Assembly (NCBI RefSeq): GCF_013304385.1
Contig: NZ_JAAITU010000011.1
Coordinates: 1 to 64,000, forward strand
DNA from: Blautia glucerasea
Lineage (GTDB): Bacteria; Bacillota; Clostridia; Lachnospirales; Lachnospiraceae
Reading direction: 5' to 3'
DNA: 64,000 nucleotides
In this document: positions 35,042 through 51,856 of the stretch, piece by piece
Layout of the letters: every line of letters starts with the position of its first letter
Position numbering within the stretch: position 1 is the stretch's first letter
Notes under the pieces: generated by a model
The model's input: the letters and a program-made list of their open reading frames with translations, nothing else
The model's database searches: none
What the model was told of the DNA's origin: nothing
Program-made: the position numbers and the translations under genes

Positions 35042-37150
35042 GTGAAAAAAAGAATTGTATCTATGCTTTTGTGTGCAGCTATGTGTATGACAGCTGCGCC
35101 GTCTGCTTATGCTATGGAAGTGGATTCTTTTACAGAGACTGCTGCAGAAGGGTCAGATGAGGGGTTTGAGGATTTAACTGCTGTACCATCAAAGGAGGCA
35201 GGTGAAACAGGAACTGAGTCAGAAACTGTGACAGGGACTGAAACAGAGACTGAAACGGAGACTACTACAGAGATTACTGATATTGGCCAGGATGAACTGA
35301 CGGGAGCAGATGTGCAGGAGAGCACTGTACAGGAGGAGCCGTCCGCTGATGCGTCCGGACTGGATGCAGACAGCCAGGAAAGTCTGTTTAATGATGGGAA
35401 TGTTTTTGCTGGTGAGGATCTTTCAGCACAGGAAGCAGGTAATACTGCCGGAAGCTGGCGTTGGGATCAGGCATCAGGCGCTTTTTCCTACTACGACCCA
35501 TCAGGGAAACAGGTGGCTCTGCCTCAATTGGATCAGGAATACCAGGCGCAGGGAAAATACACAGGATATTATCTGATCGATGGAAATTATTACTGCCTGG
35601 ATGAGCATGGAGTTCCACGTACAGGTATGATCCAGCTTACTGCGAACGGTGTGACTTCCACCTATTATTTCCAGGAAGAAAAAGATGCTTATGGTATTGC
35701 AGGCAGAATGTTCTATGGCGGATGGCTTTGCCGGCAGACAGATCAGGGTGAGAAGTGGCAGTTTTTTAATACTGGCAGAGACAATGTGGCCGATCTGGGT
35801 AAGCTATATGAGCATGGAACCATTGTTACCAAACTGGATCCGGCTGTAAAAGGAGACAGATCTTATCTTCTGGATAAGAATGGCTATATCCTTAAAAATG
35901 CCATGAAGAAGGCTGAGAATGGTAAGTATTATCTGACGGATGCCCAGGGGCAGATCTATATCAATAAGATCGTCACCTATAAAGGCAGCAAGTATTATGT
36001 GGGCAAGTATGGCAGCCGTGCAACATGGAAGAATTGCTGGCATCGCTGTACAGGTGCGGGGAACCGGATGTATTATTTCGGTAAAACACCTGGCAAGATC
36101 GTCAAAAAGACTGGCTGGCAGAAGGTAACTGTAAATGGTAAATTTTATGGATGGTTCTATTTTACAAAGAATGGAAACCATTATAAGAACAAGCTGCTGA
36201 AGTCCGGTTACTATTTCAGAGAAAACGGAAAGCTTGCCGGCGGCATGTATAAGGTTGGGAAGAAGACATACTTCTTTACACCAAGTACCTCATCCAAAAG
36301 GAATGGCAAGATGGTTAAGGGACGTCTGGCAACAGACGGTACCAACTGGTATTATGCATATAAGACTGGTGTACTTCGCAAGAGCGGCTGGCAGAAGGTG
36401 AAGGGCAATTCCTATTACTTCAAGAATTACAAAGCAGTTCGCAATACATTTATCAAAAAAGGAAGTACATACGGATATCTGGACAATACAGGAAGATTTA
36501 CAACAGGATGGGTGATTGAAAATGATTCAAAGAATCTGGTTCGGTATATTGACCCATCTAAGAAAGGCTTTGTGAAGAATACATCCTGTGTGATCGATGG
36601 TCTGCGTTATTACTTTGATGCAGACGGTTACAGGATCAATGATGTGACTGATCGGGTGGCTGGACCATATTCTGTTACAGTAGACCGTGTGAATGGGGTT
36701 ATGACTGTATATAATTCCAATCGCACCATTCCGGTAAAGAGTATCCGCGTTTCTGTTGGACTACCATCCACACCTACCCCGGTAGGTACATTCAGGCTTA
36801 GCCGCAGCGCCAGATGGCAGCCGTTGATGGGTAATTCCTGGGGACAGTATGGGACACATGTAACTGGCAATGTTCTTGTGCATTCCGTACCAGGAGGCAG
36901 CCCGGATGTATATGCACTTCCGGCAGGATTTTACAATATGCTTGGAGAGCCTGCTTCCCATGGATGTATCCGTGTATGTGTAGCAGATGCCAAGTGGGTT
37001 TATGAGAACTGCAATGGATCTGCGATTACTATTTTTGATGGCACAGCCAGGAGCGAAGAAGTATTCAAGGGACCGTTGGGACGCAATCCGCTGGTAGCTC
37101 TGCGTGCGCCATACACTTTTGATCCTACAGATCCTTCTATTACAAAATAA
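35042..37150 (+). CDS. L,D-transpeptidase with wall-binding repeats
   Basis: This secreted 702-residue protein starts with GTG at 35042 after AAGGAGA and has a signal peptide ending near AYA (residue 24). A Thr/Glu-rich low-complexity stretch lies at about 58-82 (TETETETE). From about 140 to 530 there are many aromatic-rich wall-binding repeats (for example GKYYLTDAQGQIYINK, WYYAYKTGVLRKSGW). The C-terminal YkuD domain has HGCIRV with Cys642 as nucleophile. Such enzymes make 3-3 cross-links in peptidoglycan. A strong terminator follows. The link to c-di-AMP genes fits a wall-homeostasis locus. Confidence 0.92.
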   Translation: MKKRIVSMLLCAAMCMTAAPSAYAMEVDSFTETAAEGSDEGFEDLTAVPSKEAGETGTESETVTGTETETETETTTEITDIGQDELTGADVQESTVQEEPSADASGLDADSQESLFNDGNVFAGEDLSAQEAGNTAGSWRWDQASGAFSYYDPSGKQVALPQLDQEYQAQGKYTGYYLIDGNYYCLDEHGVPRTGMIQLTANGVTSTYYFQEEKDAYGIAGRMFYGGWLCRQTDQGEKWQFFNTGRDNVADLGKLYEHGTIVTKLDPAVKGDRSYLLDKNGYILKNAMKKAENGKYYLTDAQGQIYINKIVTYKGSKYYVGKYGSRATWKNCWHRCTGAGNRMYYFGKTPGKIVKKTGWQKVTVNGKFYGWFYFTKNGNHYKNKLLKSGYYFRENGKLAGGMYKVGKKTYFFTPSTSSKRNGKMVKGRLATDGTNWYYAYKTGVLRKSGWQKVKGNSYYFKNYKAVRNTFIKKGSTYGYLDNTGRFTTGWVIENDSKNLVRYIDPSKKGFVKNTSCVIDGLRYYFDADGYRINDVTDRVAGPYSVTVDRVNGVMTVYNSNRTIPVKSIRVSVGLPSTPTPVGTFRLSRSARWQPLMGNSWGQYGTHVTGNVLVHSVPGGSPDVYALPAGFYNMLGEPASHGCIRVCVADAKWVYENCNGSAITIFDGTARSEEVFKGPLGRNPLVALRAPYTFDPTDPSITK

Positions 37151-37159
37151 ATTACAATG

Positions 37160-37191
37160 GGAGATGTTGCTGCGGCAGCATCTCCTTTTTT
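37160..37191 (+). terminator. Intrinsic terminator after the L,D-transpeptidase gene
   Basis: GGAGATGTTGC (37160-37170) pairs with GCAGCATCTCC (37175-37185) through 11 bp, one a G-T wobble, around a TGCG loop. Six T bases follow. Confidence 0.95.
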
Positions 37192-37290
37192 ACAATGCAA
37201 CCAGTGATACTATTTTGCCTATGTTTGTTTTCTGTCCAGTATCTTTGGGGTGATTAGGTGTGATAGTTTGGAACGGCGTGGAAAATCTTG

Positions 37291-37319
37291 TTGAAATTCA
37301 GGGGATTCCTATGTATAAT
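37291..37319 (+). promoter_or_regulatory. Sigma-A promoter of the GH25 lysozyme gene
   Basis: TTGAAA (37291-37296) and TATAAT (37314-37319) are separated by 17 bp. The predicted start near 37326 gives a leader of about 120 bases. Confidence 0.75.
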
Positions 37320-37326
37320 AAACAAG

Positions 37327-37426
37327 TAACAAAAATGTAATAATTTTGATAAGGTTTGGTGCTGATTCCTCAGGAGAGTCTTTTAAGCTCAGGCTGGGAA
37401 GGCGTCAATTGTGAGGAGTTTTGTTA
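37327..37426 (+). promoter_or_regulatory. Structured 5' leader of the GH25 gene, candidate RNA switch
   Basis: At the predicted transcript start, TAACAAAA (37327-37334) pairs with TTTTGTTA (37419-37426). An alternative stem pairs GATTCCTCA (37364-37372) with TGAGGAGTT (37412-37420) and competes with it for 37419-37420. The second arms lie 22-37 bases before the start codon. I could not match it to a known riboswitch consensus (ydaO c-di-AMP and both c-di-GMP classes were considered from memory). Confidence 0.4.
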
Positions 37427-37448
37427 AGAAAGGATTTGGAGGGTATAA

Positions 37449-39008
37449 ATGAAAAACTGGAAAAAGTGGCTGACCTGCGGGATGCTTGCAATGGCATTGG
37501 GAACAGCAGGGATTTCTGGAACGAAGGATGTAAAAGCAGAAAGTGTGAATCCGGCATTACTGCGGCAGAACGTAGCGGAAGGAGAAGAGGTTCCGCAGGT
37601 AGGGGCTACCAGCTCTTCTGCTGTGGACAAACGTGCATGGAGACGGATCAACGGTGTGTGTTACAATGGCAGCGGCGCAGAGATTCCCGGAGTGGTAACA
37701 AGAGGTATCGATGTATCAGAATGGCAGGGGAAGATCAACTGGCAGAAAGTGAAAAATTCAGACATTGATTTTGCTTTTATCCGTATTTCCTCTGGTACAG
37801 ATTATATGGATAAGTATTATGATTATAATATGAGTTCTGCGAATGAAGCAGACCTTCCGGTTGGAACTTACGTATACAGCAAAGCCACCACTACCACTGC
37901 AGCTTTAAAGGAAGCACAGCTGGCCATCAGTAAGATGAACGGCTACAAGGTTTCCTATCCGGTTGTATATGATATTGAATATTCCAAAATGGAATCTTTA
38001 TCTAAGAACCAGATCGCAAGAATGACCCTTGCCTTCTGCAATGAAGTGAAGGCTGCCGGATATACGCCAATGGTTTATATGAATACCCACTGGTATAAAG
38101 AAAAGGTAAATATGAGTATGCTGTCCGGTCTTGACGTATGGATCGCAAGCTACAGTGATAAGAATCCTGCACCAGACAGAAGTGTATACAATTATGGGAT
38201 CTGGCAGTGTACAGCCGGGAATCTTGGAGAAGGCTCTTACATGCGTACTACCAAAGGGCTGGTAGCAGGTATTCCTAAAGAAAATAATGTGGACCTGAAT
38301 TATGGCTTTGTAGATTATACTACACGTGTGACGCCCAGATGGTCAGCGAGGGAAGGATATACCCCTGCAACAGAAGCATCTACATCTGATATATCTGTAA
38401 AAAACGGCTGGTATACAGAAAATGGCAGACAGTGTTATTACATCAATGATGAGCGTGTAAAGGGCTGGAAGCAGATTAATGGTAAATACTATTACTTCCA
38501 TCCAGTATCCGGTAATATGTACGTGAACAGCCTTGTAAAAGTAAATGGTGTAGTGTATTATGTGGACAAAAATGGTGTACGTACGGCCAAACGCTGGGTA
38601 ACAAAAAGCGGCAACAAATATTATATTGGCAGCAAGGGCATTGCCTTAAAGGGCAGCCAGAGGATCAAAGGAAAATATTATTTCTTTGATCTGGACACCA
38701 GGATCATGTACAGGAATAAAAAGCTGGTAAGGAATGGAAGGATCTTCTATTTCGGAAATAATGGTGTAAGATTTAACGGAGGATTTAAGACCATCCGGGA
38801 AAATGGAGCGTATAATACCTATTATTTCCAGAAGAACGGACAGGCAAAGAAGGGCTGGCTGAGATTAAACGGTAAGAAATATTATTTCTATCCTTCTGGT
38901 GACAAAGCAGGTGTATGTGCAAAGCATACAAGAATCCGGACAGCCAGCGGAATGATCTACGTGTTTGATAAAAACGGTGTCTATGTGAGACGATATAAGC
39001 GGAAATAA
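37449..39008 (+). CDS. Secreted GH25 lysozyme with wall-binding repeats
   Basis: This 519-residue muramidase has a signal peptide ending near VKA (residue 30). The GH25 domain at about 84-300 shows Asp88 in GIDVSEWQG and the catalytic pair Asp175/Glu177 in YPVVYDIEYS. The C-terminal 130 residues are aromatic-rich wall-binding repeats (KGWKQINGKYYYFHP, KKGWLRLNGKKYYFYP) similar to those of the L,D-transpeptidase upstream. It should cleave the glycan backbone of peptidoglycan at the surface. It has its own promoter and a structured leader, with GGAGGG before the ATG. Confidence 0.95.
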   Translation: MKNWKKWLTCGMLAMALGTAGISGTKDVKAESVNPALLRQNVAEGEEVPQVGATSSSAVDKRAWRRINGVCYNGSGAEIPGVVTRGIDVSEWQGKINWQKVKNSDIDFAFIRISSGTDYMDKYYDYNMSSANEADLPVGTYVYSKATTTTAALKEAQLAISKMNGYKVSYPVVYDIEYSKMESLSKNQIARMTLAFCNEVKAAGYTPMVYMNTHWYKEKVNMSMLSGLDVWIASYSDKNPAPDRSVYNYGIWQCTAGNLGEGSYMRTTKGLVAGIPKENNVDLNYGFVDYTTRVTPRWSAREGYTPATEASTSDISVKNGWYTENGRQCYYINDERVKGWKQINGKYYYFHPVSGNMYVNSLVKVNGVVYYVDKNGVRTAKRWVTKSGNKYYIGSKGIALKGSQRIKGKYYFFDLDTRIMYRNKKLVRNGRIFYFGNNGVRFNGGFKTIRENGAYNTYYFQKNGQAKKGWLRLNGKKYYFYPSGDKAGVCAKHTRIRTASGMIYVFDKNGVYVRRYKRK

Positions 39009-39081: not shown

Positions 39082-40221
39082 ATGAAGAAAATTGTGATCA
39101 TCGGAGCAAATGATTTTCAGCGCCCGCTCATAAGAAAAGCCAAGGACATGGGTTATCAGACCCATGTCTTTGCATGGAGAGAAGGCGCTACAGGTGCGGC
39201 AGATGCAGATTACTTTTATGAGATCAGTATTACTGAAAAAGAAAAAATATTGGAGATCTGTAAACAGATCCAGCCGGATGGAGTAGCGACTATTGGCTCT
39301 GACCTGGCAAATATAACGGTACAGTATCTGGCTGAAAGGCTGGGACTTCCAGGCAATTCGGAAGAGTGTATCAAAAACTCTACCAATAAGTATGCCATGC
39401 GGAAGGCCTTTCTTCTGGCTGGGATCCCTGTACCTTTTTTTACGAGCGTGGAAGAAGAGGACAAGGTACAGATACCGGAATATCCGGTGATCGTAAAGCC
39501 TACAGACCGTTCCGGGAGCAGGGCCATCACAAAGGTAAACAACTCAAGGGAGCTGAAGGCTGCTATCACTGCCGCAGTCAGTCAGTCCTTTGAAAAGAAA
39601 GCCATTGTGGAAGGCTATCTTTCCGGGGATGAATATAGCATGGAAACCATAAGCTTTGCAGGACAGCATCATTGTCTGGCTATTACAAAGAAATATACCA
39701 CAGGAACTCCTCATTTTATTGAAACAGGTCATTTGCAGCCTGCACCTCTTCATACTGAAACAGAAGAAAAAGCAAAGAAAATGATTTTTGCAGCTTTGGA
39801 TGCCCTGCAGGTGAAAAATGGCGCCGGTCACAGCGAATTCCGTATTGATGAAAAGGGTGATATCCACATTATTGAGATCGGATCCAGAATGGGCGGGGAC
39901 TGTATCGGCTCACATCTGGTGCCTTTGTCCACAGGACAGGATTTTGTAGGAATGGTGGTGGACATAGCATTAGGGAATGCGCCCAAATTTGCCCGGAAGC
40001 AGGAAGGAATGTATGCAGCCATTCGTTTTATCATGGATGAAAAAGATCTTCAGGCTTATTACCAATTAAAAGAAACGTGCCCTGAGATCATCCGGGAGTT
40101 TGTGCTGGACAGTCAGCCTGGCTCCCATCCTATTACAGACAGTGGCTCCAGATATGGGTATTATATTGTGCAGACCGATTCTCTGGAGCAGGCGCGCAAA
40201 ATCCTGGGCTCCGTCAGTTGA
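39082..40221 (+). CDS. ATP-grasp domain protein (first of a pair)
   Basis: This 379-residue protein has a PurK/CarB-like pre-ATP-grasp region (VIIGANDFQRPLIRKAKDMGY) and an ATP-grasp core with PVIVKPTDRSGSRA (phosphate and adenine binding), a VEGYLSG strand, and the metal-binding end IHIIEIGSRMGGDC. A C-terminal lid follows. ATP-grasp enzymes join a carboxylate to an amine or thiol through an acyl-phosphate. It is followed by a second ATP-grasp gene and polysaccharide genes, so a ligase that modifies a sugar or lipid-linked precursor is plausible. The substrate is unknown. Confidence 0.88.
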   Translation: MKKIVIIGANDFQRPLIRKAKDMGYQTHVFAWREGATGAADADYFYEISITEKEKILEICKQIQPDGVATIGSDLANITVQYLAERLGLPGNSEECIKNSTNKYAMRKAFLLAGIPVPFFTSVEEEDKVQIPEYPVIVKPTDRSGSRAITKVNNSRELKAAITAAVSQSFEKKAIVEGYLSGDEYSMETISFAGQHHCLAITKKYTTGTPHFIETGHLQPAPLHTETEEKAKKMIFAALDALQVKNGAGHSEFRIDEKGDIHIIEIGSRMGGDCIGSHLVPLSTGQDFVGMVVDIALGNAPKFARKQEGMYAAIRFIMDEKDLQAYYQLKETCPEIIREFVLDSQPGSHPITDSGSRYGYYIVQTDSLEQARKILGSVS

Positions 40222-40246
40222 CAGTATCGGACAAAAACGCTATGAT
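40218..40246 (+). promoter_or_regulatory. Promoter overlapping the first ATP-grasp stop codon
   Basis: A perfect -35 TTGACA (40218-40223) contains the TGA stop of the upstream gene at 40219-40221. It is followed after 17 bp by TATGAT (40241-40246). It should drive the second ATP-grasp gene and the polysaccharide cluster. Confidence 0.75.
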
Positions 40247-40305
40247 ATGATACAGCGATAACCGGGCGGTTCATGCCCTGATTTTTAAGAAGAGGTAGGG
40301 ATTCC

Positions 40306-41493
40306 ATGAAGAAACTGATGATCCTGGGAGCCAGTTACTCTCAGATGCCACTGATCCAGGCGGCGAAAAGGCTGGGGATTTATACCATTGTCTGCAGCAC
40401 ACCAGGCAGCTGGCCAGGTTTTGCAGAAGCAGACGAATGTTCCTATACAGACATATCAGATCCACAGGCAGTGCTGGCAGAGGCAAGACGCACACAGATC
40501 CAGGGGATCACCACCTGTTGTCTTGATACAGGAGTACCGGCTATAGGGACTGTGTGTGAAGCTATGGGGCTTACCGGGCCAAAAGCCATTCCTGCACAGA
40601 CAGCCTCTGATAAATGGAAAATGAAAGAAGCCTTTGTAAAGGCAGGGGTACAGACAGCACGGCATATCCGTGTAAGATCTGAGGAAGAACTGGAAGCCGC
40701 CCTTTCCCAGCTTACCTTTCCTGTGATCCTGAAGGCAGTAGACCTGATGGGGAGCAGAGGGATTTTTCGCAGCAATACAAAAGAAGAAGCAAGAGCCAAT
40801 TACAGGCTTACTATGGAAGCTACAGGGAAGGATTACTGCCTTGTAGAAGAATTTATAGAAGGCACTTTATTTGGGGCAGAAGCTATGCTGAAGGACGGAA
40901 AGTTTTTGTATTGCCTTCTGGATAATACAGAAGCTTTCATCAGCGCAGTGCCTACACCGGTAGGACATTCTGTGCCTTTTGATGAAGAGGAAGCTCTTGG
41001 CGCGCAGGCCAGGGAGCAGGTGGGCAAAGCAGTAAAAGCCCTGGGACTTGATAATTGTCCTGTGAATTGTGACCTGATCTGGAAGGATGGCAGGGTTTAT
41101 GTGGTCGAGATCACTGCCAGGGCAGGAGCTACTTGTCTGCCGGAGATTGTAGGAGAGTTTTTTGGTATAAATTATTATGAAGCCATTGTAAGGCTGGCTC
41201 TGGATCTTGGAGTTGAAGAGATGTTCCATCTGGATGGAGAACATCCTGCTGTTTTGTCACATACTCTGTTATCTTTACGTGATGGGATCGTAAAAGAGAT
41301 CAGGAATGACAATGCACCATCCGGGGATATCCTGGATCTTTCTTTCAACATTTGCCCTGGAGAAGAGATACACAGATATCGTAATGGCAGGGACAGGCTG
41401 GGGCAGGTGATCCTGAAGGGCAGCATACTTACAGAATGCAGAAAGAGACTTCAGGAAGTTTTATCAAAAATACACATTGAATTTATGGAATAA
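40306..41493 (+). CDS. ATP-grasp domain protein (second of the pair)
   Basis: This 395-residue protein has an N-terminal LMILGASYSQMPLIQAAKRL segment, an ATP-grasp core with FPVILKAVDLMGSRG, EEFIEGTLFGAEAM, and the ligand end VYVVEITARAGATCLPE. It is related to the gene upstream but clearly diverged, particularly in the C-terminal third. It lies 16 bp before the EamA pair. Two neighbouring ATP-grasp ligases could add two units in sequence or act on different acceptors. Confidence 0.88.
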   Translation: MKKLMILGASYSQMPLIQAAKRLGIYTIVCSTPGSWPGFAEADECSYTDISDPQAVLAEARRTQIQGITTCCLDTGVPAIGTVCEAMGLTGPKAIPAQTASDKWKMKEAFVKAGVQTARHIRVRSEEELEAALSQLTFPVILKAVDLMGSRGIFRSNTKEEARANYRLTMEATGKDYCLVEEFIEGTLFGAEAMLKDGKFLYCLLDNTEAFISAVPTPVGHSVPFDEEEALGAQAREQVGKAVKALGLDNCPVNCDLIWKDGRVYVVEITARAGATCLPEIVGEFFGINYYEAIVRLALDLGVEEMFHLDGEHPAVLSHTLLSLRDGIVKEIRNDNAPSGDILDLSFNICPGEEIHRYRNGRDRLGQVILKGSILTECRKRLQEVLSKIHIEFME

Positions 41494-41508
41494 TTATGGG
41501 AAAATAGC

Positions 41509-41865
41509 ATGAAAGAGAATGGAAAGCAAAAGACAGCAGGACTTTTTCTGGTTCTGCATGTAAGCCTTCTGATGAGTTCTTTAAGCGGTGTATGTTCCAA
41601 AATGGCAGCCAATCAGAAAAGTTTGATCGGCTTTGCTTTATGGTATGGAGGCGTTCTTCTGATCATGGCTTTGTATGCCCTGATCTGGCAGCAGATCCTG
41701 AAGCATCTGCCATTGACGGTGGCTTATGCTAATAAGCCGGTAAGCTTGATCTGGGGGATGATCTGGGGTACCTTTATTTTTGGTGAGAAGATCACCTGGA
41801 ATATGATCCTTGGGGCACTGATCATTTTTGGAGGAATTTACCTGGTGGTGACTGCTGATGAATGA
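41509..41865 (+). CDS. EamA/SMR-like small membrane protein, ArnE-like partner 1
   Basis: This 118-residue protein has four transmembrane helices and the EamA half-repeat pattern (LPLTVAYANKPVSLIWGMIWGTFIFGEKITW). Pairs of such proteins, such as ArnE and ArnF, form heterodimeric flippases for undecaprenyl-phosphate-linked sugars. The gene overlaps its neighbour by 8 bp (41858-41865), as expected for a heterodimer, and an ArnC/GtrB-like transferase follows. Flippase function is inferred from context. Confidence 0.82.
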   Translation: MKENGKQKTAGLFLVLHVSLLMSSLSGVCSKMAANQKSLIGFALWYGGVLLIMALYALIWQQILKHLPLTVAYANKPVSLIWGMIWGTFIFGEKITWNMILGALIIFGGIYLVVTADE

Positions 41866-42202
41866 ACTGCAGATTTATATATGTATTCTGATCGTATCCG
41901 TATTTGTGGCATCCCTTTCCCAGATATTGCTGAAGATATCTGCCAATAAGACATACAGGGACAGACTTCACGAATATCTGAATCCTTATGTGATCACAGG
42001 ATACGGACTTTTGTTCCTGTCAACACTTCTTACAATGGTGGCATTAAAGAAAGTACCCCTTTCTCTGTCGCCTGTGATTGAGTCCAGCAGCTATATATTT
42101 GTGTCCCTGATGGGATATCTGGTGTTGAAGGAACGGTTTACCAAGAGAAAACTTCTGGGACTGCTGGTGATCCTTGTGGGGATCCTGGTATTCTCATTAT
42201 AA
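41858..42202 (+). CDS. EamA/SMR-like small membrane protein, ArnF-like partner 2
   Basis: This 114-residue four-helix protein has the EamA end motif PLSLSPVIESSSYIFVSLMGYLVLKERFT. It is the second half of the pair that starts at 41509 and ends 11 bp before the glycosyltransferase gene. Together the two probably move a polyprenyl-phosphate-linked sugar across the membrane, by analogy with ArnE/ArnF and the GtrA-type flippases. Confidence 0.82.
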   Translation: MNELQIYICILIVSVFVASLSQILLKISANKTYRDRLHEYLNPYVITGYGLLFLSTLLTMVALKKVPLSLSPVIESSSYIFVSLMGYLVLKERFTKRKLLGLLVILVGILVFSL

Positions 42203-42213
42203 AAGGAGAAAAA

Positions 42214-43230
42214 ATGCTTTTATCAATTGTGATCCCCTGCTACAGATCTGCCCATACCATTGAGAAGGTGGTGGAGATGAGCATGGAGGTGATTCGGACG
42301 ATCCCCGGACTGGACTGTGAATTTATCCTGGTGAATGATTGTTCCCCGGATGATACCTTTGAAGCTATCCGCAGGCTGGGCATCAAATATCCGAATGTAA
42401 AGGGAATTAATCTGGCTAAGAATTTTGGTCAGCATAATGCCATCATGGCAGGACTTCATGAGGCAAAAGGGGATTATATCATGGGAATGGATGATGATAT
42501 GCAGACCCACCCGTCGCAGATCCCTGCCTTTATTAAGGCGATGGAAGAGGGCTATGATGTAGTCTTTGGAATATATAAGAAAAGAAAATTCAGTTTCATG
42601 AAGAATCTGACCAGCAAGATTGCTTCATTTATTGTATGGCATATGGTAGAGCGGCCTAAGGGACTGGAGGCTAGCAATTACTGGTGCTGCCGCAGGTATG
42701 TGCGGGATGAGATCGTGAAGTATGAAGGTTACAATCTTTACCTGCAGATCCTGTTTTATCGAACTACTTCCAATATTGCCAATATTGAGATCCAGCATTT
42801 TTCAAGAGAAGAAGGAAGCTCCAATTATAATTTTAAAAAGGCGTTCCGCTTGTTTATGTCTTTTCTGAATTATACAGTGATCCCTCTTCGGGCAGCAGAG
42901 GTGATGGGAGTTCTGTTTTCCCTTACCGGATTTATACTGGCAGTGGCTGTGCTGATCCAGAAGCTGTCCAATCCTGATGTGGCTATGGGCTGGTCTTCCC
43001 TGATGTGTGCCATGCTGATCTTCTTCGGTATTACATTTCTGATGCTTGGAGTTATGGGAGAATATATCGGTAAGATGATTCTGAACCAGAATAAAACTCC
43101 TCAGTATGTAATACGGGAAACAGTAAATGTTCAGAAGGCAGATGCTCAGAAGATAAGTGTTCAGAAGTCAGATGCTCAGGAACCGGCAGAAATTATACAG
43201 AAAAAAGGACATGGAAAAGCTGATGATTGA
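42214..43230 (+). CDS. GT2 polyprenyl-phosphate glycosyltransferase, ArnC/GtrB type
   Basis: This 338-residue enzyme has an N-terminal GT2 (DPM1-like) domain with SIVIPCYRS, LVNDCSPDDT and MGMDDDMQT. Two C-terminal transmembrane helices lie at about 233-252 and 265-287, followed by a cytoplasmic tail. ArnC, GtrB and YfdH have this layout and make undecaprenyl-phosphate-sugar. The tail carries a repeated VQKADAQ/VQKSDAQ segment. The gene lies after the EamA pair and overlaps the aminotransferase gene, which could supply its sugar donor. Confidence 0.92.
   Translation: MLLSIVIPCYRSAHTIEKVVEMSMEVIRTIPGLDCEFILVNDCSPDDTFEAIRRLGIKYPNVKGINLAKNFGQHNAIMAGLHEAKGDYIMGMDDDMQTHPSQIPAFIKAMEEGYDVVFGIYKKRKFSFMKNLTSKIASFIVWHMVERPKGLEASNYWCCRRYVRDEIVKYEGYNLYLQILFYRTTSNIANIEIQHFSREEGSSNYNFKKAFRLFMSFLNYTVIPLRAAEVMGVLFSLTGFILAVAVLIQKLSNPDVAMGWSSLMCAMLIFFGITFLMLGVMGEYIGKMILNQNKTPQYVIRETVNVQKADAQKISVQKSDAQEPAEIIQKKGHGKADD
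43129..43179 (+). repeat. 30-bp tandem repeat in the GT2 C-terminal tail
   Basis: Two 21-base copies (43129-43149 and 43159-43179) differ at one base and repeat with a 30-bp period. They encode VQKADAQ and VQKSDAQ. They lie just before the overlap with the aminotransferase gene. Confidence 0.8.
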
Positions 43231-44353
43231 TTTTAACAGGCCTGCCTATACAGGCAAAGAAATGGAATATATTCAGGATGCTGTACAAAGAGGCATGCTG
43301 TGCGGTGACGGGGAATATACCAAACGGTGCTCCAGATGGATGGAGGAAAGGTTTCATACAGCACATGTAATGCTTACCACTTCCTGTACCCATGCACTGG
43401 AGATGGCTGCTTATCTGTCCGATATACAGCCCGGGGATGAGGTGATCATGCCTGCATATACCTTTGTGTCTACAGCAGATGCGTTTGTACTTCGTGGCGC
43501 CAGGATCGTATTTGTGGATATCCGTCCGGATACCATGAACATTGATGAGAATTTGATCGAGCCGGCCATTACAGAGAAGACAAAGGCAATCGTAGTGGTC
43601 CATTATGCAGGAGTGTCCTGTGAGATGGATAAGATTCTTCAGATCGCACACAAATATGGACTGAAGGTAGTAGAGGATGCTGCCCAGGGCGTAAATGCCT
43701 ATTATAAGGGCATGGCACTGGGAACTATTGGTGATTTTGGCTGCTATAGCTTCCATGAAACAAAGAATTATACCATGGGAGAGGGCGGCGCTATTTTATT
43801 TGATAAAGACGAGTATCAGGAAAAAGCAGAGATCCTCAGGGAAAAGGGAACTGACAGAAGTAAGTTTTTCAGAGGCCAGGTGGACAAATACCGGTGGATG
43901 GATTATGGTTCCTCCTATCTTCCAAGTGAACTGAATGCAGCCTATCTTTACGCACAGCTGGAGGTTTGTGACCAGATCCAGGATAAAAGGATGGAAATCT
44001 GGAATTATTATCATCGAGAGCTGGAAGCTCTTGAGAAAGAAGGCAAGATTACACGGCCTGTGATACCGGAAGGATGTATCCATAATGCTCATATGTACTA
44101 TTTGAAAGTGCGGGATATGGAAGTTCGTACTAAGCTGATCCATTATCTTCGGGAAAAAGGTATCTGCAGTGTATTTCATTATATTCCTCTGCATACAGCA
44201 CCGGCAGGACAGAAGTTTGGCCGTTTTGCAGGAGAGGACCGATATACTACAAAGGAAAGCGAGAAACTGTTAAGGCTGCCTATGTTCTACAACCTGGACA
44301 TGAAGGATGTGGAGTATGTTACAGAGCAGCTGAAGTCCTTTAAGGAGTATTAA
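43223..44353 (+). CDS. DegT/DnrJ/EryC1-family sugar aminotransferase
   Basis: This PLP-dependent aminotransferase of about 376 residues is closest to dTDP-4-amino-4,6-dideoxygalactose transaminases (RffA/WecE type). It has MIDFNRPAYTGKE, TTSCTHALEMAA, DEVIMPAYTFVSTA, VVEDAAQGV and the PLP lysine in SFHETKNY (Lys181 from this start). AAAGGA at 43204-43209 favours the ATG at 43223 over the one at 43211. It makes an amino sugar, which the ATP-grasp ligases upstream could acylate. An in-frame longer form overlaps the upstream gene and is unlikely. Confidence 0.9.
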   Translation: MIDFNRPAYTGKEMEYIQDAVQRGMLCGDGEYTKRCSRWMEERFHTAHVMLTTSCTHALEMAAYLSDIQPGDEVIMPAYTFVSTADAFVLRGARIVFVDIRPDTMNIDENLIEPAITEKTKAIVVVHYAGVSCEMDKILQIAHKYGLKVVEDAAQGVNAYYKGMALGTIGDFGCYSFHETKNYTMGEGGAILFDKDEYQEKAEILREKGTDRSKFFRGQVDKYRWMDYGSSYLPSELNAAYLYAQLEVCDQIQDKRMEIWNYYHRELEALEKEGKITRPVIPEGCIHNAHMYYLKVRDMEVRTKLIHYLREKGICSVFHYIPLHTAPAGQKFGRFAGEDRYTTKESEKLLRLPMFYNLDMKDVEYVTEQLKSFKEY

Positions 44354-44418: not shown

Positions 44419-44973
44419 ATGGGAAAGATCAAAGTGACACCATGTGGAGATATTGAAGGATTGAAGGTAATCGAGCCAACTGTTTTTGGAGATGCCCGTG
44501 GTTATTTTATGGAAACCTACAATTACAATGATTTCAAGGAAGCAGGGATTGATGTGGAGTTTGTGCAGGACAATCAGTCCAGTTCCCACTACGGAGTATT
44601 AAGAGGTCTTCATTTCCAGATCAATTATCCTCAGGATAAGCTGGTTCGTGTGGTAAACGGTGAAGTGTTTGATGTGGCAGTAGATTTACGAGAAGGCTCC
44701 AAAACCTACGGCAAATGGTTTGGTGTTGTGCTTTCAGCAGAAAATAAAAAACAGTTCTTTATTCCAAAGGGATTTGCTCATGGATTTCTGGTACTTTCCG
44801 AAAGTGCAGAGTTCACCTATAAATGCTCTGACTTCTATCATCCGGGAGACGAAGGCGGCCTGATCTGGAATGATCCGGATATTGGAGTAGAATGGCCGAT
44901 CCCTGAAGGTATGGAGCTTACTTTCTCTGACAAAGACCAGAAATGGGGGAGCTTTAAGGAGTTCCATAGATAG
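44419..44973 (+). CDS. rfbC: dTDP-4-dehydrorhamnose 3,5-epimerase
   Basis: This 184-residue cupin epimerase converts dTDP-4-keto-6-deoxy-glucose to dTDP-4-keto-L-rhamnose. Family motifs include FGDARGYF, FVQDNQSSS, LRGLHFQ with the catalytic His (about 65), and FIPKGFAHGFLVLS. Length and order are standard. RfbA, RfbB and RfbD are not in this window, so the rest of the rhamnose pathway must be elsewhere. It suggests L-rhamnose in the polymer. Confidence 0.94.
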   Translation: MGKIKVTPCGDIEGLKVIEPTVFGDARGYFMETYNYNDFKEAGIDVEFVQDNQSSSHYGVLRGLHFQINYPQDKLVRVVNGEVFDVAVDLREGSKTYGKWFGVVLSAENKKQFFIPKGFAHGFLVLSESAEFTYKCSDFYHPGDEGGLIWNDPDIGVEWPIPEGMELTFSDKDQKWGSFKEFHR

Positions 44974-44983
44974 GAGAGAATGA

Positions 44984-45799
44984 ATGCTTAAGACGATATT
45001 TTCCCTGCCGGCGGATGTATACAAAAACCGCCGGCTGGTTATGAAACTGGCTAAAAATGATTTTAAGACCAGATACGCAGGTTCCTATTTTGGAACCTTC
45101 TGGGCATTTGTGCAGCCCATTGTTACCATTATGGTGTACTGGTTTGTATTTTCTGTTGGCTTCCGCCAGAATACAGATGGGATCGGGATTCCTTTTGTAC
45201 TGTATCTGGTAGCTGGGATTGTTCCCTGGTTCTTTTTCCAGGATGCCCTAGTAGGCGGGACCAACGCTCTTCTTGAATATAATTACCTTGTAAAAAAAGT
45301 CGTTTTTAACATCAGTGTGCTTCCTGTTGTGAAGATCATTTCCGCACTGTTTGTACACGGCTTTTTCGTGGTCTTTACAATTATTTTGTATGCCTTCTAT
45401 GGAAGATTTCCGGACTGGTATTATCTGCAGATCCTGTATTACAGTATTTGTGTATTTATATTGTCCTTAAGCCTGGTTTACATTAGCTGTGCAGTGGTGG
45501 TATTTTTCCGTGACCTGACCCAGATCATCAACATCGGCCTGCAGGTAGGCGTATGGCTTACACCCATTATGTGGGTGGCAGATACAGCTTTGAAGGACCA
45601 TCCGCTGATCCAGAAGATCCTTCAGCTGAACCCTATGTATTATATTGTTTCCGGTTACAGGGATGCATTTGTTGTAAAAAGGTGGTTTTTTGAAAGACCA
45701 TTATGGACCTTATATTTCTGGCTCTTTACCCTGGTTTGTTTCTGCTTCGGAAACTGGGTATTTAAAAGACTGCGGATCCATTTCGCAGACGTACTATAG
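44984..45799 (+). CDS. Polysaccharide ABC transporter permease (Wzm/TagG type)
   Basis: This 271-residue ABC-2 permease has six transmembrane segments and the family pattern KNDFKTRYAGSYFGTFWAFVQPI near the N-terminus. Wzm/TagG proteins export undecaprenyl-linked polysaccharides or teichoic acids. Its ATPase partner follows after 17 bp. Together with a C-terminally extended ATPase this indicates ABC-dependent, not Wzy-dependent, export of the polymer. Confidence 0.93.
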   Translation: MLKTIFSLPADVYKNRRLVMKLAKNDFKTRYAGSYFGTFWAFVQPIVTIMVYWFVFSVGFRQNTDGIGIPFVLYLVAGIVPWFFFQDALVGGTNALLEYNYLVKKVVFNISVLPVVKIISALFVHGFFVVFTIILYAFYGRFPDWYYLQILYYSICVFILSLSLVYISCAVVVFFRDLTQIINIGLQVGVWLTPIMWVADTALKDHPLIQKILQLNPMYYIVSGYRDAFVVKRWFFERPLWTLYFWLFTLVCFCFGNWVFKRLRIHFADVL

Positions 45800-45816
45800 A
45801 AAGGAATCAACCTGTT

Positions 45817-47097
45817 TTGAGTGATAAAAATGTGATTTCAGTCCAGCATTTATCAAAAATGTATAAGCTGTATGACAAGCCCTCTGACCGTCTGAAAGAG
45901 TCTCTTGGCCTGTCCAGAAAGAAAAAATACAGGGAGCATTATGCCCTTCATGATGTGAATTTTAATATTCACGAAGGAGAATGTGTAGGGATCATCGGAG
46001 TGAACGGTTCCGGGAAGTCCACGATTCTTAAGATCATCACAGGAGTGCTGGCACCTACCACAGGGGAAGTGAAGGTCAATGGACGTATTTCTGCCCTTCT
46101 GGAGCTGGGAGCCGGTTTTAATATGGAATATTCCGGGCTTGAGAATGTGTATCTGAACGGTACCATGATCGGTTTTTCTGAGGAAGAGATCGACGCAAAG
46201 CTGGATGATATCCTTGCTTTTGCAGATATCGGAGATTATATCCATCAGCCGGTGAAAACCTATTCCAGCGGTATGTTTGTACGTCTTGCCTTTGCAGTTG
46301 CCATCAATATCGATCCTGAGATCCTGATTGTAGATGAGGCACTGTCTGTTGGTGATGTATTTTTCCAGGCAAAATGCTATCATAAATTTGAAGAGTTTAA
46401 GAAACAGGGAAAAACCATTCTTTTTGTTACCCATGACTTAAGCAGCGTGTCCAAATATTGTGACCGTGTGATCCTTCTTAACAAAGGTGTTAAGCTGGAT
46501 GAAGGCTCACCAAAGGAAATGGTGGATCTGTACAAGCAGCTGCTGGTAGGACAGGAGCCTGTGAAACAAAAAACAGATGGGGGCGAGGACCTTGCAAAAG
46601 CAGCCGTAGCGTCCATCAGCCATGAACATTTTCTGCCAAATCCTAATACTCTGGAGTATGGGGACAAGCAGGCGGAGATCGTGGATTTTGCAATTAAGGA
46701 TGATAAGGGGATGTTCACCAATACCATAGAAAAGGGAAGCACCTTCCAGATCCTTATGAAGGTTCGATTTAATGAGCAGATCCAGGAGCCGATCATGGCT
46801 TATACCTTTAAGAATATTAGGGGAACAGAGCTGACAGGCACCAACACCCTTTTTGAGAAAGCAGAAGTGCCGGAACCTGCTCCTGGAGGATGCTGCACAG
46901 TTACCTTTACACAGAAAATGGATCTGCAGGGTGGGGAATATCTTCTGTCCTTTGGCTGTACCGGCTATAAGGACGGGGAATTCAAGGTGTTCCACAGATT
47001 GTATGATGCGTGCAATATTACCGTTATTTCTGCCAAGAATACGGTAGGCTTTTTTGATATGAATTCGACTGTAACGGTTCAGGAGGATGATATATGA
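45817..47097 (+). CDS. Polysaccharide ABC transporter ATPase with Wzt-type C-terminal domain
   Basis: This 426-residue ATPase starts with TTG at 45817; AAAGGA lies upstream. The N-terminal ABC domain has Walker A GVNGSGKS at 61-68, SSGMFVRLAFAVA as signature and EILIVDEAL as Walker B. Residues 250-426 form an extra beta-rich domain (IVDFAIKDDKGMFTNTIEKG, PIMAYTFKNIRGTELTGTN) resembling Wzt_C, which in E. coli O9a recognises the capped, non-reducing end of the polymer. The gene overlaps the following capping-like gene by 4 bp. Confidence 0.92.
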   Translation: MSDKNVISVQHLSKMYKLYDKPSDRLKESLGLSRKKKYREHYALHDVNFNIHEGECVGIIGVNGSGKSTILKIITGVLAPTTGEVKVNGRISALLELGAGFNMEYSGLENVYLNGTMIGFSEEEIDAKLDDILAFADIGDYIHQPVKTYSSGMFVRLAFAVAINIDPEILIVDEALSVGDVFFQAKCYHKFEEFKKQGKTILFVTHDLSSVSKYCDRVILLNKGVKLDEGSPKEMVDLYKQLLVGQEPVKQKTDGGEDLAKAAVASISHEHFLPNPNTLEYGDKQAEIVDFAIKDDKGMFTNTIEKGSTFQILMKVRFNEQIQEPIMAYTFKNIRGTELTGTNTLFEKAEVPEPAPGGCCTVTFTQKMDLQGGEYLLSFGCTGYKDGEFKVFHRLYDACNITVISAKNTVGFFDMNSTVTVQEDDI

Positions 47098-49332: not shown

Positions 49333-51855
49333 ATGGAACAGTTAGTGTGGAGTGTAGATGACCGTAAATACCAGGAGAAGAATGAAAAATCCCTGATTCT
49401 GGAAGGGTGGGCCTTTCAAAGGGACAGCCAGCCCTTACGTTTCCTTCTTACAGATCCGGCAGGGGAGCAGCTCCCGATGGAGGAGCCGGTGCGCTTTGCC
49501 AGACCGGATGTGGAAGCCGGATATCCGGAGACATCAGGGACAAAGCAATGCGGTTTTACAATAAGGATCCCCAATGCAGAAGCGCTTGTAAAGAAGCATG
49601 AAAAGCTGAGGCTTGTGGTTACAGATGGAAAAGAAAAAGCCATTTTGTGGGAAACAGATCCACAGCAGCTTTATGATTTTTGTAAGGATCAGATGATGGA
49701 GGTACACATAGACCGACAGGAGGTGCTGTACCGCACCATGATCGCTGCAGAGGGCTGGGTACTTTGCCAGAAAGGTACTGACCGGATCCTGCTTCAGGAC
49801 GGTAAGGGGAATCCGGTATCCTTGAAGCTGAGCCGTGGACGCAGGCCGGATGTGGTGGAAAGTCTGGCGCTTGGCACAGAATATAAAGAAAAAGAACTGG
49901 GATTTCAGATCAGCGGCAAACTGGCAGATGTGGCCGGAGGCAGGCTGGTGTTGGTTTTCATTGGGAATACAGGCAGGGAAGAGATCCGAAAACAAGTGGA
50001 AATCGACCTGAAAAAGCTTCAGGCGGAAAATTCACCTGCCGGCAGACGTAAAAAGGTGCTGGCCTGGGAAAATCGGAAAGAGAATCTGGAATGCCTGCGA
50101 AAGAAGGGAATCCGTGGATTTTTGAAATATGTGGATGCAAAAGCCGGAATCGTGACCGGAGACTATGAGCAGTGGCTGATGCGTCACAAAGCCGGGAGAA
50201 AAGAGCTGATGGCCCAGCGGAAAACCCATTTTCCTTATGAACCTAAGATCAGTATTGTGATCCCTCTTTATAATACACCATTACCTTATCTGAAGGAGGC
50301 GGTGGATTCTATCGTAAAGCAAACCTACAAGAACTGGCAGCTTTGCCTGGCGGACGGAAGTACAGGAGATGAGCTTACCAGTTATATTCATAAGCATTAT
50401 GGCAGGGATCTAAGGATCTGCTATAAAAAACTGGAAAAGAACGGGGGTATTTCAGAGAATACTAATGCGGCAGTAAAAATGGCTAAAGGGGATTATATCC
50501 TTCTTGCAGACCATGACGATGTGGTAGCACCGGATGCACTTTTTCATATTGTAAAAGCCATCAATGAAAGTATTCAAAAAGGTGATCGTCCGGCAGATGC
50601 ACTGTACACTGATGAAGATAAGATCAGTATGGATGGTGCCCATTATTTTGAACCAAATTTTAAGCCGGATTATAATCTTTTCCGTTTAAGGGAGAATAAT
50701 TATATTTGTCACATTTTTGTGGTAAAGAAAGAATTGTTAAAGCAGGTTGGACTTTTTTCATCAGATTATGATGGAGCACAGGATTATGACCTGATCTTGC
50801 GGTGCTGCGAAAAGGCGGAAAACATAGTGCACATTCCAAGGGTACTGTATCATTGGAGGTGTCATATGGAGTCTACAGCAGCAGATCCTGCAAGCAAGGC
50901 TTATGCCTATGAAGCAGGGAAAAGAGCACTGGAAGCACATTACAAAAGAATGGGGATCCAGGCAGAAGTGGAGATGACAAAGAGGCCAGGCTGGTACAGA
51001 AGCCAGGTGAAGATAAAGGGACAGCCCTTGATCTCCATTATCATACCAAATAAAGATCATGTAAAGGATCTGGAACTGTGTATTTCTTCTATTGATAAGA
51101 AAAGTACCTACCGAAATTTTGAAGTACTGGTTGTGGAAAATAACAGCAACCATCCGGAAACCTTTGAATATTATGAGAAAATGACCCGAAAGTATTCTTT
51201 TGTAAGGCTTCTCACATGGAAAGAAGGTTTTAATTTTTCTGCTATCAATAATTTTGCAGCAGCCCTGGCGAATGGGGAATATTTCCTATTTCTGAACAAC
51301 GACGTGGAGGTGCTTACTCCCAACTGGATCCAGGAAATGCTGATGCTTTGTCAGCAGAAGGACGTAGGCGCGGTAGGGGCAAAGCTGTTTTACCCAGATG
51401 ATACCATCCAACATGCAGGTGTGGTGATCGGCCTGGGAGGCATTGCAGGACATATTTTCTGCAGGGCGTCCGGCAGTGCAGATGGCTATATGGGACGATT
51501 GGTAAGCGTACAGGAATACAGCGCAGTGACAGCTGCCTGTATGCTGGTTAAGAAAGAGGATTTTCTGCTGGTAGATGGTTTTGATCCGGAGTTTGTAGTT
51601 GCATTTAATGATATTGATTTCTGCATGAAGCTTGGACAGCATAAGAAAAAGGTAGTATTTACGCCTTACGCACAGCTGTATCATTACGAGTCTAAGTCCA
51701 GAGGCATGGAGGATACACCGGAGAAGCAGCTTCGCTTTAAGAAAGAAACCCTGCTTTTTGAGAAAAAATGGGGAAAAGAGCTGGCCAAAGGAGATCCTTA
51801 TTATAGCCCGAATTTATCAGTGACAGAAGGAGACTGTTCCTTAAGAGAGGTTTAA
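49333..51855 (+). CDS. Large bifunctional GT2 glycosyltransferase (paralogue A)
   Basis: This 840-residue protein has an N-terminal region of about 250 residues with beta-sandwich-like repeats (SLILEGWAF, AEGWVLCQ). Two GT2 domains follow. The first starts at about 310 (KISIVIPLYNTP, with LADHDDVV and YTDEDKIS). The second starts near 560 (ISIIIPNKDHVKDLE, with LFLNNDVE and FNDIDFCMK). Each has an acidic metal motif. Tandem-GT2 proteins of this kind extend rhamnan- or galactan-like polymers. It is translated 4 bp after the capping-like protein and is a close paralogue of the proteins at 51857 and 60682. Confidence 0.9.
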   Translation: MEQLVWSVDDRKYQEKNEKSLILEGWAFQRDSQPLRFLLTDPAGEQLPMEEPVRFARPDVEAGYPETSGTKQCGFTIRIPNAEALVKKHEKLRLVVTDGKEKAILWETDPQQLYDFCKDQMMEVHIDRQEVLYRTMIAAEGWVLCQKGTDRILLQDGKGNPVSLKLSRGRRPDVVESLALGTEYKEKELGFQISGKLADVAGGRLVLVFIGNTGREEIRKQVEIDLKKLQAENSPAGRRKKVLAWENRKENLECLRKKGIRGFLKYVDAKAGIVTGDYEQWLMRHKAGRKELMAQRKTHFPYEPKISIVIPLYNTPLPYLKEAVDSIVKQTYKNWQLCLADGSTGDELTSYIHKHYGRDLRICYKKLEKNGGISENTNAAVKMAKGDYILLADHDDVVAPDALFHIVKAINESIQKGDRPADALYTDEDKISMDGAHYFEPNFKPDYNLFRLRENNYICHIFVVKKELLKQVGLFSSDYDGAQDYDLILRCCEKAENIVHIPRVLYHWRCHMESTAADPASKAYAYEAGKRALEAHYKRMGIQAEVEMTKRPGWYRSQVKIKGQPLISIIIPNKDHVKDLELCISSIDKKSTYRNFEVLVVENNSNHPETFEYYEKMTRKYSFVRLLTWKEGFNFSAINNFAAALANGEYFLFLNNDVEVLTPNWIQEMLMLCQQKDVGAVGAKLFYPDDTIQHAGVVIGLGGIAGHIFCRASGSADGYMGRLVSVQEYSAVTAACMLVKKEDFLLVDGFDPEFVVAFNDIDFCMKLGQHKKKVVFTPYAQLYHYESKSRGMEDTPEKQLRFKKETLLFEKKWGKELAKGDPYYSPNLSVTEGDCSLREV

Positions 51856-51856
51856 A

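Follow-up and report, generated by a model that had tools for sequence, protein, structure and literature searches.

Gene organization of the locus

Six genes at positions 39082-44353 of a 64,000-nt stretch of the Blautia glucerasea genome (assembly GCF_013304385.1, contig NZ_JAAITU010000011.1; the whole stretch is hereafter called the window) form six same-strand (+) open reading frames (ORFs) encoding two ATP-grasp proteins, two EamA proteins, a family 2 glycosyltransferase (GT2) and a DegT aminotransferase. Judging from the families of these proteins and the company their genes keep in other genomes, we consider it fairly probable that the cluster makes a lipid-carried, N-aminoacylated 4-amino-4,6-dideoxygalactose (Fuc4N), which would be added to a cell-surface polymer. 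The six genes and the downstream features considered with them are as follows (aa, amino acids; dTDP, deoxythymidine diphosphate; Und-P, undecaprenyl phosphate).

39082-40221, + strand: ATP-grasp 1, 379 aa; predicted to couple an amino acid to the 4-amino nitrogen of dTDP-Fuc4N (N-acylation); core enzyme
40306-41493, + strand: ATP-grasp 2, 395 aa; predicted second amino-acid ligase, a variable tailoring enzyme
41509-41865, + strand: EamA half-transporter 1 (Eam1), 118 aa; predicted subunit of an Und-P-sugar flippase
41858-42202, + strand: EamA half-transporter 2 (Eam2), 114 aa; predicted partner subunit
42214-43230, + strand: GT2, ArnC/GtrB/PgfS-like polyprenyl-phosphate glycosyltransferase, 338 aa; predicted to load the acylated sugar onto Und-P
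43211-44353, + strand: WecE-type DegT aminotransferase; predicted to convert dTDP-4-keto-6-deoxyglucose to dTDP-4-amino-4,6-dideoxygalactose (Fuc4N)
44419-44973, + strand: RmlC, dTDP-4-dehydrorhamnose 3,5-epimerase (TIGR01221, 259 bits, cut-off 155.75); shared dTDP-sugar supply, rhamnose branch
44984-47097, + strand: Wzm/Wzt polysaccharide ABC exporter, Wzt with a C-terminal domain (ABC2_membrane 46.8 bits, Wzt_C 144.3 bits)
54307-56769, + strand: YfhO-type (GT-C) membrane glycosyltransferase (YfhO PF09586, 204.6 bits, cut-off 28.5); predicted transferase

The intergenic gaps between the six genes are, in order, 84, 15, -8 and 11 bases, followed by the overlap of GT2 and DegT. The + strand run goes on to 56769 through rmlC, wzm, wzt, a methyltransferase gene and genes for two double-domain GT2 proteins to YfhO. 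The mechanically called DegT start (GTG at 43157) lies inside the GT2 gene, and an ATG at 43211 or 43223 suits the family better; our DegT searches started at 43208, one codon 5' of 43211, which is harmless. In a Pfam scan of 18 window proteins, all six products passed the gathering cut-offs: ATP-grasp_4 with 87 (ATP-grasp 1) and 30.2 bits (ATP-grasp 2) against 27, EamA with 30.7 (Eam1) and 38.7 (Eam2) against 28.2, GT2 with 95.8 against 23.3, and DegT with 301.1 against 19.8. The arrangement recurs in related genomes and is therefore not due to chance.

A WecE-type aminotransferase points to Fuc4N

The DegT protein passed two NCBIfam WecE models, with 628.3 (cut-off 375) and 614.2 bits (cut-off 434.85), and its nearest solved structures, 4PIW (2.9e-160) and 6BLG, are dTDP-4-amino-4,6-dideoxygalactose transaminases. 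An ArnB identity was rejected (195.5 bits against a cut-off of 631). Genes rmlA and rmlB, both above cut-off, lie on another contig of the same genome (C98:165562-167440), and in several Blautia relatives the locus itself includes rmlB and rmlA, so the substrate dTDP-4-keto-6-deoxyglucose should be available. The product, going by family identity, is most likely dTDP-Fuc4N. The sequence-only reading of this locus had assigned an amino sugar to the DegT enzyme; that assignment holds for a WecE-type enzyme, with the sugar being Fuc4N, as in enterobacterial common antigen, rather than of the 4-amino-4-deoxy-L-arabinose (Ara4N) type.

ATP-grasp genes are linked to the other module genes

A scan of contigs with the ATP-grasp 1 alignment gave 362 pattern matches and yielded 101 relatives. 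The top 80 (49-92% identity) were kept; many of these 80 loci are from Blautia and are thus not independent. Genes of other genomes were longest-ORF picks labeled by script from BLAST and HMM matches, without a trained gene caller. The GT2 labels near ATP-grasp genes were loose at first, and the counts were upheld in a recount with stricter labels. Within six genes of ATP-grasp 1, WecE was found at 66 of the 80 loci (65 without one truncated copy), the ArnC-like GT2 at 68 (56 at an identity of at least 35%), Eam1 at 62 and Eam2 at 61, and all four partners occurred together near ATP-grasp 1 at 49. When the set was restricted to the 54 loci where four or more genes had been called per side, the corresponding counts were 46, 51, 46 and 46, and 37 for all four. 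Blautia and further Lachnospiraceae yielded related loci, as did records named Ruminococcaceae, Oscillospiraceae, Treponema ruminis, Gordonibacter and Bacteroidales; many of these are metagenome-assembled genomes (MAGs). Loci L029 and L033, which have the module, are from B. wexlerae and B. schinkii strains.

A family sample of 299 genomes from 298 genera gave a similar picture. At cut-offs of E <= 1e-75 for ATP-grasp 1, E <= 1e-60 for ATP-grasp 2 and E <= 1e-110 for WecE, the three genes were present in 24, 25 and 95 genomes, respectively. WecE was found in 22 of the 24 genomes with ATP-grasp 1 (7.6 expected, p = 2.7e-10) and in all 25 genomes with ATP-grasp 2 (7.9 expected, p = 3e-14); in 17 and 15 of these, respectively, the two genes share a contig and lie no more than 20 kb apart. 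Among the 20 of 27 ATP-grasp 2 places whose neighborhoods were counted, 18 had GT2 within four genes. In a phylum sample of 398 genomes, WecE was present in four of the five genomes with ATP-grasp 1, compared with 20 of 398 overall; one of the four is the window genome, another (G427) has WecE on a different contig, and the fifth ATP-grasp 1 genome (G534) has no WecE.

Some of these numbers weigh against a strict link. WecE was absent within six genes at 14 of the 80 ATP-grasp 1 loci (six near a contig end, and three with WecE slightly farther away), five of the 22 family-sample genomes with both genes had them on no shared contig, two of the 24 lacked WecE, and the p-values overstate the evidence because the sample genomes share ancestry. 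Even so, the co-occurrence check that the sequence-only reading had proposed was run, and the outcome it had named as damaging, ATP-grasp genes that are not conserved with the cluster, did not occur; across the 80 loci, ATP-grasp 1 keeps company with WecE, the ArnC-like GT2 and both EamA genes, and in the 299-genome sample each ATP-grasp gene is tied to WecE.

As a side observation, an ATP-grasp 1 homologue (68%) at L043:693-1994 lies near a contig end beside holA, gpr, spoIIP and lepA, with no module partners. Its placement is possibly a contig or binning artefact; the locus was taken as uninformative for its position near the contig end, yet counted among the 80.

ATP-grasp and GNAT genes nearly exclude each other beside WecE

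WecE loci in the family sample were analyzed at 93 of 96 places, leaving out two partial genes and one that is 48% identical; loci with WecE only had at first been limited to 20 chosen by similarity rank before the set was extended. Within five genes of WecE, an ATP-grasp gene was found at 33 loci, a GNAT acetyltransferase gene (model built from five seeds) at 24, and both at one (Fisher p = 1.2e-4). The GNAT gene lay 3' of WecE and directly 5' of GT2 at 20 of the 24 loci, and the five GNAT genes checked were Acetyltransf_3. The simplest reading, which the pattern supports and does not prove, is that the 4-amino group is capped by one enzyme or the other: GNAT would add acetyl, and ATP-grasp another acid. 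The near-exclusion thus suggests that the ATP-grasp enzyme probably N-acylates Fuc4N. Against this stand the 37 of 93 WecE loci with neither gene nearby and four ATP-grasp 1 loci with a GNAT gene within six genes.

Several GNAT loci (L157, L159, L161, L171, L194, L195, L206 and others) share an order of WecE, often an ORF of ~600 aa, then GNAT and GT2; the ~600-aa product is a membrane protein, a GT-C enzyme by guess. The WecE-GNAT-GT2 loci (20 of 93) probably encode a simpler acylated-Fuc4N decoration.

The two ATP-grasp ligases

The best Protein Data Bank (PDB) match of ATP-grasp 1 was the L-amino acid ligase 3VOT (1.6e-27). Its alignment of 54 sequences, the others 49-92% identical to the window protein, has 82 invariant columns, among them K139, E252 and E265, which align to the same residues of 3VOT; K143, D256 and E268 are invariant in the nine ATP-grasp 2 rows. 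We take these conserved lysine and acidic residues of both enzymes to have metal and ATP roles. ATP-grasp 2 passed LAL_C2 (PF18603, cut-off 29.4) with 42.7 bits; ATP-grasp 1 reached 20.8 bits. The best PDB match of ATP-grasp 2 was 4DIM (4.8e-95). A PurD/GARS identity of ATP-grasp 2, suggested by the name of 4DIM, was rejected (TIGR00877, 35.8 bits against 288). Separately, 4DIM is named a phosphoribosylglycinamide synthetase, yet it is a close relative of ATP-grasp 2, which itself falls far under the PurD cut-off; the PDB name may be a misannotation.

The sequence-only reading had placed both ATP-grasp enzymes in the pathway. Both are present and linked to the module, but the pair is a local variant and does not form the core. 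Only seven genomes of the family sample had both ATP-grasp 1 and ATP-grasp 2 (of 24 and 25; 2.0 expected), within 20 kb in five of them, and a second ATP-grasp gene lay within three genes of ATP-grasp 1 at 31 of the 80 loci, 22 of which belong to the set L026-L050 from Blautia, Robinsoniella and close MAGs. The slot 3' of ATP-grasp 1 varies. In some loci it holds an NAD-dependent epimerase-type short-chain dehydrogenase/reductase or a second DegT enzyme; in others, an ornithine cyclodeaminase (OCD)/SbnB-like dehydrogenase with another ATP-grasp, or ATP-grasp 2 with a hexapeptide acetyltransferase; in further loci the flippase or GT2 follows directly. Given the few shared genomes and this variable slot, we rejected the two enzymes together as the module core. 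ATP-grasp 2 perhaps adds a second residue, or the sole one in genomes without ATP-grasp 1.

A fused PLP domain and the nature of the acyl group

The Blautia-genus set comprised 64 genomes, 42 of them without ATP-grasp 1. The ATP-grasp 1 open frame spans 604-759 aa in 18 of the other 22 and 382-393 aa in three (the window genome, G022 and G001); one more is ended by its contig. The extra domain, fused to ATP-grasp 1 in most module-bearing Blautia, is a pyridoxal phosphate (PLP) fold II enzyme (PALP), located for instance at L015:9760-10737. Its best NCBIfam matches were the D-cysteate sulfo-lyase CuyA, XcbE and the D-cysteine desulfhydrase family (ACC_deam_rel), all under the cut-offs (153.3 vs 450, 136.7 vs 450 and 133.8 vs 289.4, respectively). 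Outside Blautia, this PLP domain is joined to ATP-grasp 2 at five of the 20 ATP-grasp 2 loci and is a separate neighbor at three. Since one PLP domain is fused to either ligase depending on lineage, both ligases and the domain appear to be linked to one product. OCD/SbnB-like neighbors occurred at two of the 80 ATP-grasp 1 loci and hexapeptide acetyltransferases at seven.

The PLP fusions, the 3VOT match and the LAL_C2 domain of ATP-grasp 2 point to an amino acid as the ligated acid; the domain is joined to ATP-grasp 1 in most Blautia and to ATP-grasp 2 elsewhere. The window genome itself (G000) speaks against this, as it has no PALP match at 1e-20, and the Pfam scan of 18 window proteins showed no PALP, OCD or acetyltransferase domain. 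The PLP domain was rejected as part of the window's own system for lack of a match at that threshold. The same negative results would fit ligases that acylate Fuc4N with a non-amino acid, such as a hydroxy or dicarboxylic acid, to give an ordinary N-acyl sugar. ATP-grasp ligases use varied carboxylate substrates, and ATP-grasp 1 falls under the LAL_C2 cut-off, which also suits this alternative. We consider it rather unlikely, as the solved structure that ATP-grasp 1 matches best is an L-amino acid ligase, ATP-grasp 2 passes LAL_C2, and in other loci the ligases have amino-acid-type PLP and OCD enzymes as fusion partners or neighbors.

In Blautia, GT2 and flippase types diverge with the PLP-domain state

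The best PDB match of GT2 was ArnC (9HWJ, 2.5e-39), followed by the glycosyltransferase sll0501 (5EKP, 5.6e-30). With 159.6 bits against the ArnC model (cut-off 529) and 155.7 against PgfS (cut-off 500), GT2 is related to both families and a member of neither. The EamA proteins matched ArnE (Eam1, 27.2 bits, cut-off 92) and ArnF (Eam2, 27.8 bits, cut-off 99) weakly.

GT2, Eam1 and Eam2 of the window are 84%, 78% and 82% identical to those of G001, whose ATP-grasp 1 likewise lacks the PALP domain, versus 62.8 ± 2.1%, 60.7 ± 2.2% and 58.7 ± 2.1% to those of PALP-bearing Blautia and close MAGs (16 loci each). WecE (78 vs 77.3%) and ATP-grasp 1 (66 vs 67.0%) are in range, as are RmlC, Wzm and Wzt. 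Trees of GT2, Eam1 and Eam2 part PALP-less from PALP-bearing loci with supports of 0.999-1.0 and branches of 0.27-0.31, whereas trees of YbbR, WecE, Wzm, Wzt and RmlC show no such split. For ATP-grasp 1, the split has a branch of 0.004 and a support of 0.04; for ATP-grasp 2, the values are 0.034 and 0.875. Several points weigh against this co-divergence. YbbR and ATP-grasp 2 show a slightly raised identity to G001 as well (z = 2.4 and 2.5), the PALP-less Blautia are just three species, two of them very close, so that the co-divergence may represent one or two events, and the GT2 of the PALP-less Robinsoniella locus L050 (64%) is not of the window type.

In Blautia, GT2 and flippase types track the PLP-domain state and WecE and the exporter do not, which suggests that acylation probably precedes loading onto Und-P. 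The ligases could instead act in the cytoplasm after GT2, with the Und-P-linked sugar and not the nucleotide sugar as their substrate: the sequence of reactions cannot be read from gene order, and covariation of the EamA pair with the acyl group would be expected in that case too. However, GT2 covaries with the PLP state as strongly as the flippase does, suggesting that GT2 sees the acyl group, and ArnC, its nearest solved relative, by name takes an already N-acylated (formamido) sugar. We regard acylation after GT2 as unlikely, a little more so than a non-amino acid.

The co-divergence also argues for placing the ligases in one pathway with GT2 and the flippase. ATP-grasp/PLP pairs also produce free peptides and siderophores, and each ATP-grasp occurs without the other, as might be expected if the ligases made an unrelated peptide or metabolite and were merely co-transcribed with a plain Fuc4N decoration system. 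This seems improbable, and is the least likely of the alternatives, in light of the GNAT/ATP-grasp near-exclusion at WecE loci, the tracking of PLP-domain state by GT2 and flippase types, and the ties of both ligases to WecE across genera.

YfhO, the exporter and the acceptor

The YfhO protein matched PgfM2 with 57.5 bits (cut-off 1500) and had no PDB sequence match at 0.01. YfhO had been proposed earlier as the final transferase, and its occurrence in or beside the module in L047, L048, L051 and L100 makes that role likely. Two points run the other way: in the window, YfhO lies 10 kb from the module (downstream, in the same + strand run), and a large membrane protein passing a crude GT-C test was found in only 36 of the 80 fetched stretches.

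Both in the window and wherever a Blautia locus extends far enough, the module continues into rmlC-wzm-wzt, and from this synteny the outer acceptor is most likely the Wzm/Wzt polysaccharide. Linkage alone, to be sure, shows neither the acceptor nor the acid used. The pathway could be right through flipping and end on a surface protein (Pgf-like) or a teichoic acid. The matches to PgfS and PgfM2, both below cut-off, make a protein acceptor possible; YfhO enzymes act on lipoteichoic acid (LTA) or wall teichoic acid (WTA) in other bacteria, according to the parts of PMC8035078 consulted; and three YfhO-GT2-ATP-grasp 2 groups (L140, L142 and L143; YfhO similarity 22-34%) carry no Wzm/Wzt label in the fetched stretch. 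With the module running into rmlC-wzm-wzt, we hold such an acceptor to be doubtful, if the most serious of the alternatives, and keep the exported polysaccharide as the preferred one.

Neighboring genes

Directly 5' of ATP-grasp 1, positions 35042-39008 encode an L,D-transpeptidase and a GH25 lysozyme with choline-binding-type repeats. Relatives of the transpeptidase occurred near ATP-grasp 1 at 17 of the 80 loci and relatives of the lysozyme at nine; the repeats might bind the decorated glycopolymer. Three long proteins with two GT2 stretches apiece, at 49333-54301 and 60682-62547, are probably polymer backbone glycosyltransferases. The protein at 57170-58456 has a CbiK-type cobalt chelatase domain (250.6 bits) and misses the NCBIfam CbiK cut-off (204.4 vs 400); with its signal-like start and long Asp/Glu/Ala-rich N-terminal stretch, it is perhaps extracytoplasmic.

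Comparison with known systems

In the Arn pathway, which places Ara4N on lipid A, a 4-amino sugar is N-acylated before ArnC-type transfer to Und-P and is then served by a paired EamA/DMT (drug/metabolite transporter) flippase and a GT-C transferase. The Blautia module shares the 4-amino sugar, prior N-acylation (predicted here), the ArnC-type step, the small EamA pair and the GT-C enzyme. It differs in having WecE instead of ArnB and ATP-grasp instead of formylation, and no ArnA or ArnD was found among the window proteins scanned. Membership of the Arn pathway was rejected on the scores given above for ArnB, ArnC, ArnE and ArnF.

Enterobacterial common antigen (WecE-WecD) resembles the module in that WecE gives dTDP-Fuc4N, and the GNAT genes near WecE without ATP-grasp (23 of 93 loci) offer a further parallel. 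Its N-acetylated sugar, Fuc4NAc, is part of a repeat linked to undecaprenyl diphosphate, whereas the Blautia module is predicted to make an Und-P-linked decoration. L-amino acid ligases (BL00235/3VOT and BacD) share the ATP-grasp fold, 3VOT being the best solved match of ATP-grasp 1; unlike them, ATP-grasp 1 has an amino sugar as its predicted acceptor and lies under the LAL_C2 cut-off.

Multi-component transmembrane glycosylation systems (CsbB/GtcA/YfhO, Csd, Gac), as presented in passages of PMC8035078, share with the module a GT-A enzyme that loads a sugar onto undecaprenyl phosphate (C55-P), a flippase, and a GT-C enzyme for an outer acceptor; in the Gram-positive systems described there, YfhO enzymes are the GT-C partners. 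By homology alone, GT2 corresponds to the sugar-activating GT-A enzyme and the YfhO protein to the GT-C transferase. The flippases named there are of the GtrA or Wzx type, unlike the EamA pair found here, and the term EamA is absent from the main text of that review; the acylation of Fuc4N predicted for the ATP-grasp enzymes also sets the module apart. No GtrA or Wzx match was found among the 18 Pfam-scanned window proteins, the rest of the window and genome not having been scanned for them.

Going by the relevant passages of PMC5207245 and PMC5207246, the nearest described case is the type B flagellin glycan of Clostridioides difficile (CDR20291_0244-0247). There, 3-amino-3,6-dideoxygalactose (Fuc3N) is acylated by taurinyl-Ala-Gly through a pathway with an ATP-grasp_4 ligase, an OCD enzyme and an FdtB-like aminotransferase, and mutants in the ATP-grasp and OCD genes lack the terminal peptidylamido-sugar, sugar included. 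The shared features are a Gram-positive host, a dTDP-amino sugar aminotransferase and an ATP-grasp_4 protein, with OCD present in C. difficile. The differences are Fuc3N made via an FdtB-like enzyme, one ATP-grasp with a FemAB-like protein, and a protein acceptor; those passages also mention no lipid carrier or flippase, unlike the Blautia module. An FdtB-type (Fuc3N) identity of the window aminotransferase, with the FdtB assignment taken from PMC5207246, was rejected in favor of the WecE type. The earlier view that no Gram-positive pathway with two ATP-grasp ligases had been described in such a setting is tempered by this single-ATP-grasp precedent, which goes without a lipid carrier in those passages. 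In the literature, we found no ATP-grasp enzyme with Fuc4N or 4-amino-4,6-dideoxyglucose (Qui4N) and no YfhO with EamA and polysaccharide; these are weak absences, as only open-licence papers were covered.

Proposed pathway and implications

We propose that RmlA and RmlB would supply dTDP-4-keto-6-deoxyglucose, which WecE would aminate to dTDP-Fuc4N. ATP-grasp 1 would then activate the carboxylate of an amino acid with ATP and couple it to the 4-amino group, and ATP-grasp 2 may add a second residue onto the first; in most module-bearing Blautia, the window species not included, this amino acid would be made or modified by the PLP domain that ATP-grasp 1 carries. The ArnC-like GT2 would transfer the acylated sugar to Und-P, the EamA pair would flip the lipid-linked sugar, and the YfhO-type GT-C enzyme would put it on an outer acceptor, probably the Wzm/Wzt-exported polysaccharide. 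The first interpretation of the locus was thus largely right, with its emphasis on two ligases corrected.

A broader interpretation, which we offer tentatively, is that the loci represent a widespread and undescribed envelope chemistry of gut Clostridia, in which Und-P-linked Fuc4N carries one or two non-standard amino acids made or modified by the ATP-grasp enzymes and the fused CuyA/XcbE-like PLP enzyme, with dedicated EamA pairs flipping each chemotype. The amino acid would then possibly be sulfonated or beta-substituted, echoing the taurinyl cap reported in the C. difficile type B passages.

If the proposed pathway is true, it would add to Gram-positive envelope decoration a flippase class, EamA, that is not named for it in the passages of PMC8035078. 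The ATP-grasp/GNAT near-exclusion and the acyl-tracking GT2 and flippase types provide natural pairs for the study of Und-P glycosyltransferase and flippase specificity. It would also mean that many gut bacteria bear aminoacylated surface sugars made by swappable cytoplasmic ligases.

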